Positions 766 through 6,346 of a stretch of DNA of 10,504 bases are shown here, piece after piece (the stretch's first letter is position 1; the number at the start of each line of letters is the position of its first letter). The translations under genes were made by a program, and so were the position numbers. This DNA comes from Candidatus Adiutrix sp. Its GTDB lineage: Bacteria; Desulfobacterota; Desulfarculia; Adiutricales; Adiutricaceae. The notes under the pieces were generated by a model that was not told the origin of the DNA, searched no databases, and was given only the letters and a program-made list of their open reading frames with translations. The stretch is taken from the NCBI GenBank assembly GCA_031286085.1, contig JAITUX010000178.1:1-10504 (forward strand), written 5' to 3'.

Positions 766-863
766 TGGCGGGAATATGTGGGAATCGAACCCACCCAGGC
801 GGCTATTAACCACCAACACTGGTTTTGAAGACCAGGGGGCACACCAGTTACCCATATATTCCC
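766..863 (-). tRNA. selC: tRNA-Sec (anticodon UCA)
   Basis: This is selenocysteine tRNA. SerRS charges it with serine, SelA converts the serine to selenocysteine, and SelB delivers it to UGA. It has an 8-bp acceptor stem (GGGAATAT with ATATTCCC) and a T stem GTGGG/CCCAC with loop TTCGATT, giving the 8+5 pattern of bacterial tRNA-Sec. The anticodon stem is CTGGT/ACCAG with loop CTTCAAA, so the anticodon is UCA (bases 828-826). The variable arm is long and pairs GGTGGT with GCCGCC. A discriminator G and CCA are encoded at 769-766. Length is 98 nt. It starts 13 bases after the selA stop on the same strand, which suggests cotranscription and processing from the selA mRNA. Downstream, GTCTT/AAGAC followed by TTTT (about 735-762) is a weak terminator candidate. 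Confidence 0.97.
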
Positions 864-876
864 GTTAAACAATTTA

Positions 877-2277
877 TCATATTAACTCCTGGCCGGTCAA
901 ATCCTCCAGCGCGGCGGCGGCCCCGGCCAGGATAGCCAACTGGTCGGGCCTGATGGTCCGCACATCCAAAAGCAGCCGCTCGCGGTGGAGCCGGCCCACG
1001 ACGGGCGGCTCGCCCCGCCTCAAGGCGGCGTCCAGGCGTTCGGCCGACAGGCGGGGGTGGGTCACGGCCACGGCCCAGGAGGGCAGGGGGTATTCCGGGG
1101 CCGCCCCGCCGCCGGCCTGGCCCTCCACTTCCACCACGGCCAGCTGTAGGGCCGGGGCCGCATCGGCCAGGGCTGTTCTAAGGGTCTCGGCCCGGGCCCG
1201 GAGTTCCCCGTCTTCAATAGTCAGCATGGCCAGGGTCGGTATGTCCCGGCGGGCCCGGTCCGGGTCGAGGTGAAGCCTTAAGGTGGCTTCCAGGGCGGCC
1301 AGGCAGAGCTTGTCGATGCGCAGGGCCCGGGCCAGGGGATGGACCCTGAGCCGGGCCACCAATTCGGCCCGGCCAACCAGAAGTCCGGCCTGGGGGCCGC
1401 CCAGGAGCTTGTCGCCGCTGAAACAGACGAGGTCGGCCCCCGCGGCCAAGGCTTCGGCCGGCTCGGGCTCTCCGGGCATATCAAGCCCCACCGCGCCGCT
1501 GCCCAGGTCACAGATCAGGGGCAGGCCCCGGGCCGAGGCCAGAGCGGCCAATTCGGCCACCGTGGGTTTATGGGTATAACCTATCAGGCGGAAATTACTC
1601 GGGTGGATTTTTAACAGGCAGCCTGAACGCCCCGGCGCAATGGCCCCGGCATAGTCGGCCAGGGTGGTCTTGTTGGTGGTGCCGACTTCCCGCAGCACCA
1701 CGCCGCCCTGGGCCAGTATCTCCGGCAGACGGAAGGAGTCGCCGATCTCCACCAGTTCGCCCCGGGAGACGACGGCCTCCAGGCCGCCGCAGACGGCGGT
1801 CATGGCCAGGAGCAGAGCCGCGGCGTTGTTGTTGACCGCCAAGGCGGCGGCCCCGCCGGTCAGGCGGGTGAGGAGGCTTTCCACATGGGCCTGGCGGCTG
1901 ACCCTCTCCCCGGCCTGGGGGTCATATTCCAGGTTGGAGTAGGCCGCCGCTACTTCCGCCACCCTGGCGGCCACGGCCTGGCCCAGAACCGAACGTCCCA
2001 GGTTGGTGTGGAGAACCACGCCGGTGGCGTTCACCACCGGCCTTAGCCTGTGGGCGGTTTCCTCGGCCAGATGGCCGCGGACCGCGGCCAGAAGGCTTTC
2101 CGGGGCGGGCACGTCCGCGAGGCGGCCGGTCAGGAGGTCCCGGCGCAATTCCGCCAGGGCGCGGCGTATGGCCGCCAGGAGATGGACTCGCGGGGCCGAC
2201 GACAAGTCCGGCACGGCTTCGGCCCGCCGCAGGAGAAGATCGACCTTGGGTATGGCCCTAAGCGCAGCCGACGGCAT
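877..2277 (-). CDS. selA: L-seryl-tRNA(Sec) selenium transferase (selenocysteine synthase)
   Basis: This is a PLP enzyme that converts Ser-tRNA(Sec) to Sec-tRNA(Sec) using selenophosphate, as a ring-shaped oligomer in the cytoplasm. The 466 residues match the family's usual length. Residues 6-16 (LRAIPKVDLLL) are the typical N-terminal motif. VNATGVVLHTNLGRS (82-96) and VNNNAAALLL (148-157) are classic SelA motifs. EVGTTNKT lies near 197-204, and CFSGDKLLGGPQAG (285-298) holds the PLP lysine, K290. The ATG at 2277 is preceded by GGGGAGG with 8-base spacing. The stop is TGA followed immediately by TAA, a tandem stop that may guard against UGA readthrough in a Sec-using cell. The gene lies 102 bases after grdA and 13 bases before tRNA-Sec, so the Sec biosynthesis genes sit beside the selenoproteins that need them. 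A strong hairpin precedes it. Confidence 0.97.
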   Translation of the reverse strand: MPSAALRAIPKVDLLLRRAEAVPDLSSAPRVHLLAAIRRALAELRRDLLTGRLADVPAPESLLAAVRGHLAEETAHRLRPVVNATGVVLHTNLGRSVLGQAVAARVAEVAAAYSNLEYDPQAGERVSRQAHVESLLTRLTGGAAALAVNNNAAALLLAMTAVCGGLEAVVSRGELVEIGDSFRLPEILAQGGVVLREVGTTNKTTLADYAGAIAPGRSGCLLKIHPSNFRLIGYTHKPTVAELAALASARGLPLICDLGSGAVGLDMPGEPEPAEALAAGADLVCFSGDKLLGGPQAGLLVGRAELVARLRVHPLARALRIDKLCLAALEATLRLHLDPDRARRDIPTLAMLTIEDGELRARAETLRTALADAAPALQLAVVEVEGQAGGGAAPEYPLPSWAVAVTHPRLSAERLDAALRRGEPPVVGRLHRERLLLDVRTIRPDQLAILAGAAAALEDLTGQELI

Positions 2278-2379: not shown

Positions 2380-2856
2380 TCAGAGGACGGACTTGCCGTG
2401 CCGGCCGCGCATTTCAGACACGGACTTGGCCAGGGCGGCGGTATCCAGAACCATCTCCATCATGCTGACCTGGTTTTCCCATTCCGCCGGGTCGGCTTCG
2501 GCCCGGAGGGCTTCTTCGAATATGTGGTAAACCGGCAGGCCCAGGGCAACCCCGGCCAGGGGACCGGCGAAGGTCGGGTCGCCGGCGGTGACTGTTTCGG
2601 CGTAGATGCCGGCCCCTTCCGCGTCGGAGGAGCCCAGGACCACGATGACGGCGTCGGTCCCGAATTTTTCAGCCGCGTCCTTGATCCGCTGTTGGTTCGC
2701 CAGATCCATGGCGCCAGCGGCCGTTCAGACAAAACACTCGGTGGCGGAAAAGACTATCTCCGCGCCGGAGTTTTTAAAGACGCTCTCCATGGCCGGGCTG
2801 GGGACTCCGTCCCTTTCTCCCAGGAGGAGAAGCTTTTTGCCGGTCAATTTTCCCAT
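2380..2856 (-). CDS. grdA: glycine/sarcosine/betaine reductase selenoprotein A (UGA-encoded Sec44)
   Basis: GrdA is the small selenoprotein that takes the carboxymethyl group from protein B as Sec-carboxymethyl selenoether and passes it to protein C; it is reduced by thioredoxin. The 477 bases include an in-frame TGA at 2727-2725, codon 44. Read as Sec, the product is 158 residues, exactly the usual GrdA length. Residues 39-50 read TECFVUTAAGAM, the invariant GrdA active site, with C41 three residues before U44. The N-terminal part contains GERDGVPSPAME (13-24). A conventional gene caller would start at the ATG at 2709 and lose the first 49 residues, including the active site. The ATG at 2856 has AAGGAG 6 bases upstream. 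A SECIS-like hairpin follows the UGA. The real stop is also TGA (2382-2380). Confidence 0.97.
2698..2727 (-). promoter_or_regulatory. bacterial SECIS-like element of grdA with the Sec UGA codon
   Basis: After the UGA (2727-2725) come 11 bases and then the stem CGCCA (2713-2709) / TGGCG (2702-2698), closing a 6-base loop TGGATC. The loop starts 16 bases after the UGA and has G at its second position, matching the general bacterial SECIS pattern of a short stem and a G near the start of the apical loop. SelB would bind this to insert Sec. The fold was made by eye. Confidence 0.7.
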
Positions 2857-2961: not shown

Positions 2962-4263
2962 TTAAAAAACAGTCTGGTCCGACACATCGGCCGAAAGGGC
3001 CATAAGAGCCTTTTCCACCAGCTGGCGGCGGACCGCCACCTCCTCTTCCCGGGGGAGGGCGGGGTTGCCCAAGGGGTGGGGGATGGCCACGGTGGGAATG
3101 ATGCGGTTGGCCCCGACGCTCTTGGAGATGGGCACGATGGAGGCCATATGCGCCACGGGCATATCGCCTTTGTCCTCAATGGCTTTGGCCAGCGTTGCGC
3201 CGCAACGCGTGCAGGTCCCTCAGGTGGAGGTCAGGATGACCGCCTGGACTTCGGCCTCCCGAAGCTTCTGGCCGATCTCCCCGCCCCACTGGGCGGCGTG
3301 GGCCACCGCCGTGCCGTTGCCCACCGTGGCAAAATAAGTGGGGAAGAGACGGCCGATGCGGCCTTCCCTTTCCATGCACCGGAGCACGTCCACCGGCAGA
3401 ACCCGGTCGGGATCCTCGTTGGCGAAGGTCTGGTCATAGCCGCCGTGGGCGGTCTGGAAGTCTTCGCCGGTCAGGTCGTCCACCCCTTCCAGGCTGTAGG
3501 CGCCGTAGCTGCGGGCGCTGGAGGCGGGGATGTGGTCCGGGTTGCCCTTGGGCACTATGCCCCCGGAGGTGACCAGGGCGATGGTGGCCCGGCTCATGTC
3601 CTTGACGCCCGGGCGCGGCCTGACCCGGTCAAAGGCGGGCATCTTGTATTCGGTGAGGAAATACTGGCCCTTGATTTTCTTCATCAGCATATTCACCGCC
3701 CGTTCGGCCCCGATTTCATCGTGGAAGGTGTTCAGGCGCACCCCGCGTTCAATGTAGCCCTCCTCCGCCGCGCTCCCCAGCCGCCGGCCGTTCAGGAGCT
3801 TTATGGCGAAGGCGGCCATGGCCGGCACGGCCTGGCCCATGCCCCTGGCGCTGTCGGCGGTGGGCAGGATGAAGGTGTTGGCCTTGTATATCTCCACCCC
3901 GGGGTTTTCCGGAAACATGGCCGTCAAAGAGACGCGGCCGCGGGCGGCGGCGGCCGAAGCGGCCAGCCCGCAGGCCAGGCCGTAGCGCCCGGCGTTGAAG
4001 GCCGGGCCGGCCACCAGGGCCTGGGCCTGGTATTTATCCAGGGCTTGGCCGATGAACCCGGCCACCTCTTCCGGATGCCCCACGCAGTAGTTGTCCCCGC
4101 AGACCACGGTGGCCGCGATTTCCGCCTGGTCCCCCCAGGCCTGCTTCAAGGCCAGGCCGGGTCCGGCCGCCCCCGCGCGCAATTCAGGCGGGTGGTCGGC
4201 CTTATCCTCGCCGCCGACGCCGCCGAAGAACTGGTTTATGTAATGTATGATGCGGTAAGCCAT
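2962..4263 (-). CDS. grdB: glycine reductase complex protein B, selenoprotein subunit (UGA-encoded Sec348)
   Basis: GrdB is the substrate-specific selenoprotein subunit of protein B. With the processed GrdE subunits it activates glycine as a Schiff base and transfers the carboxymethyl group to GrdA. The TGA at 3222-3220 is codon 348. Read through, the protein is 433 residues, close to the family's size. The upstream part ends ILTST and continues as U-GTCTRCGAT, the known Sec-x-x-Cys-x-x-Cys site of GrdB/GrdF/GrdH proteins (U348, C351, C354). The N-terminus RIIHYINQFFGGVGGEDKAD is the usual family start. I chose the ATG at 4263 because AAGGAG lies 7 bases upstream; an in-frame ATG at 4299 would add 12 atypical residues. 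The stop is TAA. The paralogues GrdF (sarcosine) and GrdH (betaine) are similar; glycine is favoured because a glycine riboswitch heads the operon. Confidence 0.95.
3192..3222 (-). promoter_or_regulatory. bacterial SECIS-like element of grdB with the Sec UGA codon
   Basis: Eleven bases after the UGA (3222-3220) a perfect 7-bp stem forms between GCGTTGC (3208-3202) and GCAACGC (3198-3192), closing the 3-base loop GGC. The loop begins 18 bases after the UGA with G first, as in typical bacterial SECIS elements. The hairpin also encodes the conserved TRCGAT residues, so it must satisfy both protein and RNA constraints. Confidence 0.78.
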
Positions 4264-4344
4264 AAGGCAACTCCTTGAGGTGAGGGCTGAAACTGTCATG
4301 CCCGGCTGCTTTCGAAATAAGAACCCTTTGAAAGCGGCTTGGTA

Positions 4345-5640
4345 TCAAATCGTGTAGGCGCCGATGCGGCTTAGGCCCAATTCGCAGGTGGCGCCCATAA
4401 TGGCCTGAAGCTCGACTTCCAGGGAACCGTCCGGGCGCCGGGAGCCGAAGAAGCCGCCGGCGACGACCTCGGCCTGGCCCGGGTCGCCGATGACCTTGGC
4501 CATGGCCGGCAGGATGATGGTGGCGTTGGCGTTGCCCGCGGTGACCACGGCGTCGCCTTCGGGGCAGGAATCGGCCAGGGACTGGCTGGCCCCGTTGGTC
4601 CCGGCGTATTCGTCGGTGACCAGGACCGTCTTGACGCCGGCCTTTTCAGCCTTGACGCAGTTGAGGATCAGGTCGGCGTCGGGGTTGCCGAAACCCTCCT
4701 CGGAAATGATGGCCGCCTCCGCCCCCAGGAGCCGGACCAGCCTGATGGCCAGGGATGAACTGCGCTGCTTGTCGGCCAGGGTCACGTTTTCATTGGTGAC
4801 GACCACGCCCACGAAGTTCAGTTCCGTCCCGTGGCGCTTGAAGAGGGCTTCGATGATGGGGTTGTTCTGGTGGGAAAAGGTGTTGTTCTTGTCGCAGGCC
4901 GAAACGCAGTTGCCCGAGACTATGGCCCCGTCCATGATTTCCGTGGGGCTCATGAGGGTGGGCAGGATTCTTTTGGCGTCCACGCCGTAAACCCAGGTGT
5001 CGTGGAGCAGGCCCTGGGACTGGAGCATATAGACGTAGGCCACCTTGGGCAGGTTCGGGTGGCGGGCCAGGGTTTCGCTCAAAGGCTGAAAATCATAGAC
5101 GGCCACCCGGTCGGCCCGGGCCGCCGCGGCCCGGCATTCGGCCGCCAGGTAGTGGGCCGCCTTAAGGCCGGCCAGCCGGCAGCATTGCTCGGCTTCGTGG
5201 AGCCTGACCCCCTCCCGCGGGGTCAGGACCAGCACCAGGTTGGCGGTCCTGGAAAACGGGGTATAGTCGGCGCCCGGGCCGCTCATGTCCACGATGCCCT
5301 CCTGGGCGGCGACCAGGCGGCCGGCGGTGAGCACGGCCGCGCCTTCCAGCACCAGGGTCTGGCCTTCGCCCACGGTCGTGTCCAGGGGGCCTATGAAGCC
5401 GGGGAAGACCTCCCCCGGGCCGGAGAGCTTGGCCCGGGGCTCCAGGGCGTCCTTGACCGGCATGATCCTTGTGTCTTCGCCGGGGTGGGCCAGGTCCAGC
5501 TCCACGCCGGCCAGGCCCCGGTCTTCCATTATGAGCGCCTTGAGTTCCTCCCGGTTTACGGTCAGAAGGCCGTTTTCCACATGGGTGGCCTCGCCGAAGC
5601 ATATCCGCCGGACGGAGATCTTATGCAGTTCCAGTTTCAA
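4345..5640 (-). CDS. grdE: glycine reductase complex protein B, GrdE proprotein (pyruvoyl-forming)
   Basis: GrdE is made as a proprotein that cleaves itself just before a cysteine. The new N-terminal residue becomes a carbonyl (pyruvoyl-type) group that binds the glycine amino group. The 431 residues match the family's length. The cleavage motif SGNCVSACDKNNT is present, with N244-C245 as the predicted cleavage pair (Cys242 in the studied Eubacterium protein, from memory). The start MKLELHKISVRRICFGEAT is characteristic. The start codon is TTG at 5640, supported by AAAGGAGG 5 bases upstream; no in-frame ATG nearby has an equal site. It overlaps the end of grdX by 20 bases, so the two are probably translationally coupled, and it is followed by grdB after 81 bases. 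The stop codon is TGA. The sarcosine (GrdG) and betaine (GrdI) paralogues cannot be excluded, but the glycine riboswitch favours glycine. Confidence 0.96.
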   Translation of the reverse strand: MKLELHKISVRRICFGEATHVENGLLTVNREELKALIMEDRGLAGVELDLAHPGEDTRIMPVKDALEPRAKLSGPGEVFPGFIGPLDTTVGEGQTLVLEGAAVLTAGRLVAAQEGIVDMSGPGADYTPFSRTANLVLVLTPREGVRLHEAEQCCRLAGLKAAHYLAAECRAAAARADRVAVYDFQPLSETLARHPNLPKVAYVYMLQSQGLLHDTWVYGVDAKRILPTLMSPTEIMDGAIVSGNCVSACDKNNTFSHQNNPIIEALFKRHGTELNFVGVVVTNENVTLADKQRSSSLAIRLVRLLGAEAAIISEEGFGNPDADLILNCVKAEKAGVKTVLVTDEYAGTNGASQSLADSCPEGDAVVTAGNANATIILPAMAKVIGDPGQAEVVAGGFFGSRRPDGSLEVELQAIMGATCELGLSRIGAYTI

Positions 5641-6172
5641 GGGAACCTCCTTTCAAGGGCCAGGCGTCCATGGTCCCGGCGCCTGGCGCCGAAAGGACCG
5701 CCTCGGACCAGCCCGCTTGCTCCAAGGCCGGACGCAGAAGTTCAAAATCCAAAAGGGCGCAGGCTTCCCGGAGCCCGGGGGGGGCCGGATTCGGGGCCTG
5801 GCTGTCCTGATACAGGGCCAGGGCTTCTTCCAAAAGCCTTAGGGACCACTCGTCGGCCAAAAGGCGCGTCGCTCCTTCCCGGGTCTGGACGGAGGCGCCG
5901 TCAAAGCGCCAAAGCAACGAGCGGTAAGGCTGCTGACGGGGTAGGAAATTGCCGTAGAGGGGATGGTGGAGAAGCCGCCAGCCGGCGTGAAGAAATCCGC
6001 GCCCGGCCAGAAGAACCTCCAAGGGGGGGCCTTCAATCAGAAAACACCGGAATTCGTCCGGGGCTTGAGAACTGGCCCGCAGCACCTGCGGGCTGGACCC
6101 GGCCCAGGGAATTCAGGCCAAGCCGTCGGCCTGACGCCAAACCGGGTTGTTGGTCAGAAGAGTGACAGACAC
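5621..6172 (-). CDS. grdX: GrdX family protein with an in-frame UGA at codon 20 (candidate selenoprotein or broken gene)
   Basis: GrdX is a small protein of unknown function found at the head of glycine/sarcosine/betaine reductase operons. The GTG at 6172 has GAGGTG 5 bases upstream, and residues 4-10 read TLLTNNP, the N-terminal motif I associate with GrdX. The same frame then meets TGA at 6115-6113 (codon 20, context DGLA-U-IPWAG) and continues into the family core: FLIEGPPLEVLLAGR (44-58), HAGWRLLHHPLYGN (62-75) and QQPYRSLLW. Read through, it is 183 residues, longer than GrdX proteins I recall (about 120), with extra residues between TNNP and the core and a C-terminal tail reaching into grdE. 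The alternative start GTG at 6085 would drop TNNP and has no clear ribosome binding site. There is no cysteine beside the UGA, unlike typical redox Sec sites. Whether it is a Sec codon or a nonsense mutation is open. Confidence 0.72.
6075..6115 (-). promoter_or_regulatory. candidate bacterial SECIS element after the grdX UGA
   Basis: From 6093 to 6075 the - strand forms a perfect 8-bp stem, GCCCGCAG with CTGCGGGC, closing loop GTG. The loop starts 27 bases after the UGA (6115-6113) with G first. Shape and loop resemble the grdB hairpin in this window (7 bp, loop GGC), and GCAGGT recalls the E. coli fdhF element. It lies further from the UGA than the grdB (18) or grdA (16) hairpins but inside the range I recall for bacterial SECIS models. 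In DNA this GC-rich, chance hairpins are common. Confidence 0.45.
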
Positions 6173-6195: not shown

Positions 6196-6245
6196 CTCTG
6201 TCGCGTCTGCCCTTCCCAATGGAGCGGCGGCTTCAGAGGGCGTCG

Positions 6246-6331
6246 GATCATGCTCCTGGAACCTGAGAGTTTCGGTAAACCTTGCCCCTTCGGTGGCGGC
6301 CAAGCCCAGTAGGCCGCTCTCTCGCATGATC
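6246..6331 (-). ncRNA. glycine riboswitch aptamer (gcvT motif) upstream of the grd operon
   Basis: The leader RNA contains the conserved glycine aptamer in order: the 5' half GATCATGC of P1 (6331-6324), GAGAG, an internal stem GCGGCC/GGCCGC, the core CACCGAAGGGGCAA, then GAAACTCTCAGG and CCAGGA, then GCATGATC (6253-6246) closing a perfect 8-bp P1. GAGAG pairs with CTCTC as in the known fold. Only one complete aptamer is visible. The following 70 bases can form further pairing (CTCTG with CAGAG, GCCC with GGGC) that may act as a partner or ghost aptamer, or as the switching part. Glycine riboswitches usually turn genes on when glycine is present, which suits an operon that consumes glycine. 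The leader runs from about 6340 to the grdX start at 6172. Confidence 0.93.
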
Positions 6332-6346
6332 TTCATCCGCTGGCTT

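Follow-up and report, generated by a model that had tools for sequence, protein, structure and literature searches.

The glycine reductase operon and its first gene

The window, by which we mean the whole 10,504-nucleotide stretch of Candidatus Adiutrix DNA analysed here, carries a set of glycine reductase genes on its minus strand. In minus-strand order, a glycine riboswitch aptamer in the grdX leader (6241..6336; Rfam RF00504, 64.9 bits) is followed by grdX (5621..6172), a grdE-type subunit gene (4345..5640; PF09338, 634.3 bits) whose predicted start overlaps the end of grdX by 20 nt, grdB (2962..4299; TIGR01918, 570.7 bits; PF07355, 494.2 bits), grdA (2380..2856; NF040748, 243 bits; PF04723, 239.9 bits), selA for selenocysteine (Sec) synthase (877..2277; TIGR00474, 515.5 bits), and a tRNA-Sec gene (770..863; Rfam RF01852, 68.2 bits). 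Both grdA and grdB are of known selenoprotein types with UGA as Sec, and grdB has its SECIS element at 3182..3219 on the same strand (Rfam RF01990, SECIS_4, 43.9 bits), within which lies the 7-bp hairpin with loop GGC that a sequence-only reading of this DNA had already pointed out. Between grdA and selA (2301-2351), a perfect 20-bp inverted repeat, GGGGAAGCGTTGATTAATGG ... CCATTAATCAACGCTTCCCC, was read by eye; it is perhaps a terminator or a processing hairpin.

The grdX gene starts with GTG at 6172-6170, preceded by GAGGT and followed by the TNNP motif. At codon 20 its frame meets an in-frame UGA (6113..6115, minus strand) and then stays open through the conserved GrdX core until the TAA at 5623-5621, giving a translation of 183 residues if the UGA is counted as Sec. 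This product scores 52.5 bits against the NCBIfam model NF038093 (cut-off 40) and so belongs to the GrdX family; the listed name and description of that model make no mention of Sec. Nineteen nucleotides past the UGA lies a SECIS-like hairpin (6075..6093, minus strand), a perfect 8-bp stem formed by GCCCGCAG (6093-6086) and CUGCGGGC (6082-6075) around the loop GUG (6085-6083). The ribosome binding site, the uninterrupted frame beyond codon 20, and the 8-bp hairpin at this distance are all as the sequence-only reading had described them, and its remark that the hairpin lies farther from the UGA than that of grdB also holds, with a UGA-to-loop distance of 27 nt against 18 nt.

According to the rules for bacterial SECIS (bSECIS) elements printed in an excerpt of PMC13188914, the loop should have 3-9 nt with a G in the first two positions, the stem 4-16 bp, and the UGA-to-loop distance should be 16-37 nt; the grdX hairpin (8 bp, GUG, 27 nt) satisfies them. 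On the other hand, the covariance-model check that had been proposed for this region turned out negative, as none of the Rfam SECIS families reached its gathering score on the grdX hairpin of the window or of any UGA-bearing locus scanned. The SECIS_4 matches in the scanned UGA loci sit elsewhere in the cluster, and where checked (the window and L115) they are those of grdB. GrdA and GrdB (PF04723 and PF07355) resemble GrdX in that UGA codons and hairpins occur together in one gene cluster, and the grdB loops (GGC, GGU, or GGA) resemble part of the grdX loops.

Part of the apparatus for Sec insertion is close at hand. Since tRNA-Sec and selA adjoin the grd genes in the window, and selB lies on the grdX contig in both same-genus relatives with grdX (G003 and G004), glycine reductase and the Sec machinery form a cluster in this genus. 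A selB gene was not found in the window's own metagenome-assembled genome (MAG; 82% complete, 273 contigs); a short SelB-like match at the end of a G000 contig (L185) was assigned by eye to the beginning of EF-Tu. Among the other genomes tested, SelB exceeded its cut-off in 29 of 31, including 23 of the 25 that bear a UGA in grdX; the two UGA-bearing genomes below the cut-off are G521 and G535.

Conservation of the UGA and its hairpin

Six genomes of the same genus were searched, and two have grdX. Both have the UGA at the aligned codon, with equal spacing and stem length, at a protein identity of about 50%. Together with five Desulfovibrionaceae, the three Candidatus Adiutrix genes form what we call class A: eight genomes that share the same UGA, the 19-nt spacing, and the 8-bp stem. 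Homologues with UGA at codon 20, which the sequence-only reading had proposed to look for, therefore exist in seven other genomes.

In the alignment of these eight sequences (A2), four of which are close relatives, all 64 pair cells of the stem are standard pairs, and none of 500 shuffles reached this. The covariation value (0.348, compared with a shuffled mean of 0.169) was likewise reached by 0/500 shuffles. However, two of the five covariation measures do not go beyond the shuffles: the number of pairs in which both bases have changed (two) is reached by 56/500 shuffles, and that of pair types by 143/500. The compensatory changes are one pair that goes from C-G to U-A and the loop-adjacent pair, which is C-G, G-C, or A-U. 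The hairpin is kept though the peptide that it encodes differs (SPQVLRA, RPHGVRA, and GLQGLQA). Conserved residues inside the hairpin also tend to keep identical codons: 7/7 between L006 and L007, compared with 26/53 elsewhere in the gene, and 5/7 between the window and L006, compared with 22/51 elsewhere. Pairs with L010 have no such excess (0-1 of 1-3 codons).

How often might such a hairpin arise by chance? The 16 context loci, which partly overlap, hold 3796 distinct other TGA trinucleotides; of these, 36 (0.9%) are followed at an allowed distance by a stem of at least 8 bp with a G-first loop of 3 nt, and 165 (4.3%) by a stem of at least 8 bp with any allowed loop; with overlaps included, the counts are 40 and 196 of 4560. 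At the shorter length seen in class B, described below, a stem of at least 6 bp follows 5.2% of the TGAs with a G-first 3-nt loop and 20.8% with any allowed loop. When the window was recoded synonymously, the stem was kept in place in 127 of 5000 sequences; for the 13 of the 26 UGA-bearing genes tested in this way, it was kept in place in 0.4-15%, and an equally long stem appeared somewhere at an allowed position in 2-26%. The window hairpin alone is thus only mildly unusual in GC-rich DNA, and both the widened TGA controls and the complete set of shuffle results make any one hairpin count for less. It becomes decisive because the UGA, the spacing, and the 8 bp are conserved across A2.

Genes that lack the UGA are also informative. 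The class A column is filled in ten GrdX rows without UGA, six of them with Trp, two with Arg, one with Leu, and one with Gly. The sequence-only reading had regarded ordinary residues at codon 20 of relatives as evidence against a Sec codon; such residues do occur, and the Sec claim nevertheless stands, for L008, a relative with the inserted segment and TGG at the class A site, has no stem longer than 3 bp. In P0011 and P0014-P0016, as judged from the proteins, the SPQVLRA-type segment that encodes the hairpin is degraded. The loss of the stem in L008 and the degraded segment in these proteins are what is expected if the UGA and the hairpin work together.

UGA codons at five positions in two phyla

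The UGA is not confined to codon 20. Among 288 Desulfovibrionaceae genomes surveyed, 18 have GrdX; in ten of these the gene contains a UGA, five at the class A site and five at a second site (class B). In the Synergistota, 124 of 185 genomes match GrdX, and 13 of the 109 inspected have an in-frame UGA between the TNN motif and the core, at three further sites; the 15 matches left uninspected have best E-values from 5e-19 to 6e-7. Some Synergistota matches were first listed with an internal TAG or with several stops, but these lists included stops upstream of TNN; between TNN and the core, the stop was TGA in each case seen. In total, 26 genomes carry a UGA in grdX at five positions (eight in class A, five in B, six in C, three in D, and four in E), so that the presence of a Sec-type UGA with a SECIS in GrdX, as proposed for the window, is supported by comparison well beyond this genus. 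The five class B genes read LISG-U-SASV inside the core, with a 6-bp stem and a UGA-to-loop distance of 20 nt. The three Synergistota classes are C (TNNARL-U; 24 nt; 9 bp in five of the six genes and a mismatch in the stem of L105), D (GAL-U-VSGHGG; 21 nt; 8 bp), and E (KEL-U-xxxSSAWEVL; 19 nt; 8-9 bp); the core alignment of one class E gene, L102 of G725, is uncertain because its core contains an ambiguous residue X. In all five classes, the loop has 3 nt and begins with G, the stop codon is UGA in 26/26 genes, a TNN or SNN motif is kept before it in 26/26, and an uninterrupted stem of 6-9 bp stands at the class position in 25/26, L105 being the exception. Counted from the nearest plausible start, the UGA falls at codons 15-28 throughout.

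In a tree of the GrdX core, built from 122 of 131 loci (nine were lost to a motif filter) and 115 columns, with 22 inner branches open, classes B, C, D, and E each fall on one side of a branch, with support values of 97/89, 92/90, 100/99, and 100/98, respectively. The UGA class labels need eight changes on this tree, where the least possible number is five.

Three side observations from the surveys may be recorded here. A GrdX-like frame (tblastn, 30.3% identity) lies on a 2.1-Mb replicon, plasmid pDA100 of Photobacterium sp. DA100 (L064), and stays open from the SNN motif to the core; a member of the Vibrionaceae is an unexpected host for a glycine-reductase-type gene. One clostridial locus, also from a plasmid record (L063), has grdX without UGA. 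Many Synergistota genomes (e.g., G728, G749, G750, G830-G834, G836, G837, G842, G843, G845, G846, G850, and G851) have a second, weaker GrdX-like match, and these are possible paralogues.

The gene neighbourhoods are similar across the classes. The grdX gene is preceded by a glycine riboswitch in the window, in 11/12 loci of one set, and in 10/10 context loci that span all five classes. In those loci of classes A and B that were checked, the gene after grdX is of the grdE type; in classes C, D, and E, with one locus checked for each, a thioredoxin-like gene that scores below the equivalog cut-offs stands between grdX and grdE. The genes grdA and grdB, both of which require Sec, are near grdX in the loci checked. 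The gap between grdX and the next gene is at most 77 nt in 17/17 UGA loci and exceeds 100 nt in 18 of 42 loci without UGA (47 were examined, five had no call, and some genomes were counted twice); because this difference is confounded by clade, we keep it out of the proof.

If these codons specify Sec, the residue might be expected to serve the GrdX protein itself in redox chemistry or as a metal ligand, as it does in most selenoproteins, and any effect of its decoding on the operon would be a by-product. Class C gives this explanation its best support: Cys is the commonest residue at that position in GrdX without UGA (17/105, in the motif TNNxxLC), which is the usual pairing of Sec and Cys. 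In addition, residue C43 is common to the three Adiutrix GrdX, and thioredoxin-like genes follow grdX in the loci checked of classes C, D, and E. However, Cys is rare at the positions of classes B, D, and E (2, 1, and 1 of 105) and is found in none of the ten UGA-less rows with the class A column filled. A Cys homologue at the Sec position is a supporting, though not a defining, mark of a selenoprotein, and GrdX does not provide it. Moreover, when positions are counted without gaps from the core helix, the UGA sites correspond to window residues 20, about 37, 44, 45, and 49, and these fall in different places of an AlphaFold model of GrdX (pLDDT 87.3, pTM 0.81): residue 20 at the start of an inserted strand (20-22), residue 37 in a linker, residues 44 and 45 in a strand (40-45), and residue 49 in the loop after it. 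The fold itself gave no function, because Foldseek found no match in the PDB at E ≤0.001 (the best was 0.52). GrdA and GrdB differ here, as their Sec lies in a fixed motif (CxxU and UxxC in the table excerpted from PMC13188914), whereas that of GrdX varies in position. We therefore consider a role of Sec in the chemistry of GrdX unlikely as the main explanation, although it is the strongest of the alternatives to the reading developed below.

Reading through the UGA

A quite different explanation is that the UGA is a real stop, that codons 1-20 form a leader peptide, and that GrdX starts downstream, for example at the GTG at 6085. In the window, this GTG lies 10 codons past the UGA, and a TTG with a Shine-Dalgarno-like motif lies 31 codons past it. 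The protein listed for the window (P0003) starts at that TTG, and P0004-P0010 begin within, after, or shortly before the hairpin segment. However, in 19 of the 26 genes the stretch from the UGA to the first core helix offers no start codon (ATG, GTG, or TTG). Its length is 30-35 codons in class A, three in B, 15 in C, and 7-8 in D and E, so the start-codon test is short in classes B, D, and E. The GTG at 6085, which the sequence-only reading had named as a possible start, is inside the hairpin and has no Shine-Dalgarno motif; initiation there is not general, as both same-genus relatives have GTT in its place and no ATG, GTG, or TTG before the core helix. In GrdX genes that lack the UGA, the strand with the TNNP or TNN motif runs on into the core without a break. 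Selection on the protein points in the same direction: after the UGA, pN/pS is 0.19-0.45 in 10/10 pairs tested, while the values before it, from only 12-27 codons, range from 0 to 1.65 (with 0.69, 0.80, and 1.65 in three pairs). Because 19/26 genes lack an alternative start and the core is under purifying selection, readthrough is needed, and a leader peptide is very improbable.

Readthrough might in principle proceed without SelB. Hairpins past stop codons are able to promote readthrough with another amino acid or frameshifting, and the grdX hairpin could control such an event. Yet the stop is UGA in every one of the genes, the hairpins fit the loop and spacing rules of bSECIS elements, the great majority of the other hosts have SelB over the cut-off, and the neighbouring grdA and grdB are Sec genes; we give this explanation as little credence as the leader peptide. 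A nonsense mutation or a sequencing error, both of which the sequence-only reading had allowed for, and likewise a pseudogene, can be discarded. The sequence does come from a MAG contig, and a single base separates UGA from UGG, which L008 has at this site; yet the same UGA and hairpin recur in seven other genomes, a further 18 have a UGA elsewhere in grdX, TNN and the core are not separated by a second stop, and the codons after the UGA evolve as coding sequence.

Since the UGA, the hairpin, and the coding sequence behind them are conserved together, the GrdX core requires recoding.

Probable selenocysteine and a possible checkpoint at the head of the operon

UGA-hairpin pairs of this sort are read by SelB with Sec-tRNA. 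From the conserved UGA and hairpin, the need for readthrough, and the SelB genes of the other genomes, it is therefore very likely, with a probability of about 0.93, that the grdX UGA is decoded as Sec. In mechanistic terms, the hairpin 19 nt past the UGA would direct Sec insertion at codon 20 by the bacterial SelB/SECIS mechanism. If the UGA at codon 20 is so decoded, the conserved GrdX core could be produced only when Sec-tRNA is available, and such a recoding, with GrdX synthesis conditional on Sec, seems to us highly probable from the sequences compared. The results for L008 and for the riboswitch add support to it.

What, then, would the Sec codon be for? When selenium is short, ribosomes would stop within about 28 codons and GrdX would be absent. 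The genes downstream, with grdE overlapping or close by and grdA and grdB themselves requiring Sec, would presumably be lowered through lost translational coupling or Rho-type polarity. In other words, the grdX UGA may act as a checkpoint of the selenium supply at the head of the operon, a proposal to which we assign an even chance. It is favoured over a catalytic Sec because the position of the UGA moves and because Cys is rare at the homologous positions, save in one Synergistota class; shifting of the position within a short N-terminal stretch is easier explained by selection on decoding than by residue chemistry. Against a checkpoint stand the 105 of 131 GrdX loci without UGA and the partial Cys counterpart in class C. 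More tentatively, and at somewhat less than even odds, we speculate that the checkpoint has been re-invented repeatedly, several lineages in two phyla having each acquired a UGA and a SECIS on their own, at different codons but always among about the first 28 of the gene that comes first behind the riboswitch, and that the decoding itself, and not the chemistry of the residue, has been selected.

Two known types of regulation offer partial parallels. The SECIS-like element of E. coli selAB is also a SECIS-type hairpin used in selenium-dependent regulation, but it lies in an untranslated leader and is not known to involve UGA decoding, whereas the grdX hairpin comes after a UGA within the coding sequence of the operon's first gene. 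The trp leader and other amino-acid attenuators detect a shortage of an aminoacyl-tRNA through translation close to the operon's 5' end, as is proposed for grdX; the difference is that the codon sensed in grdX would be a stop that SelB recodes, within the gene of a conserved protein.

As for earlier work, the function of grdX is described as unclear and possibly regulatory in a passage of PMC4536689, and a passage of PMC2897892 reports its co-transcription in C. sticklandii. Table 1 of the 2026 selenoprotein review PMC13188914, as excerpted, lists 119 families and subfamilies, and GrdX is not one of them. The passages on GrdX in several papers (PMC12674515, PMC10838667, PMC10880999, PMC4536689, PMC2897892, PMC3510511, and PMC10536192) mention no Sec in GrdX, and a search of the freely accessible literature found, in the texts it returned, no description of GrdX as a selenoprotein. 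The combination of selenocysteine, a leader peptide, and a glycine riboswitch was likewise not found by the literature search. From its absence in the review table and in these passages, we therefore file GrdX as a new selenoprotein family. Judged from sequence comparison, it would be one with an unusual, position-variable Sec codon, for which a checkpoint function is plausible.

The grdX gene would thus be added to the selenoprotein families, and its members are currently shortened by gene callers, as P0003 illustrates. If the checkpoint is true, Sec would be used here for regulation, with Sec codons that are free in their position. This would break the rule by which selenoproteins are found through their Cys homologues, and would imply that other genes of this kind have gone unnoticed.
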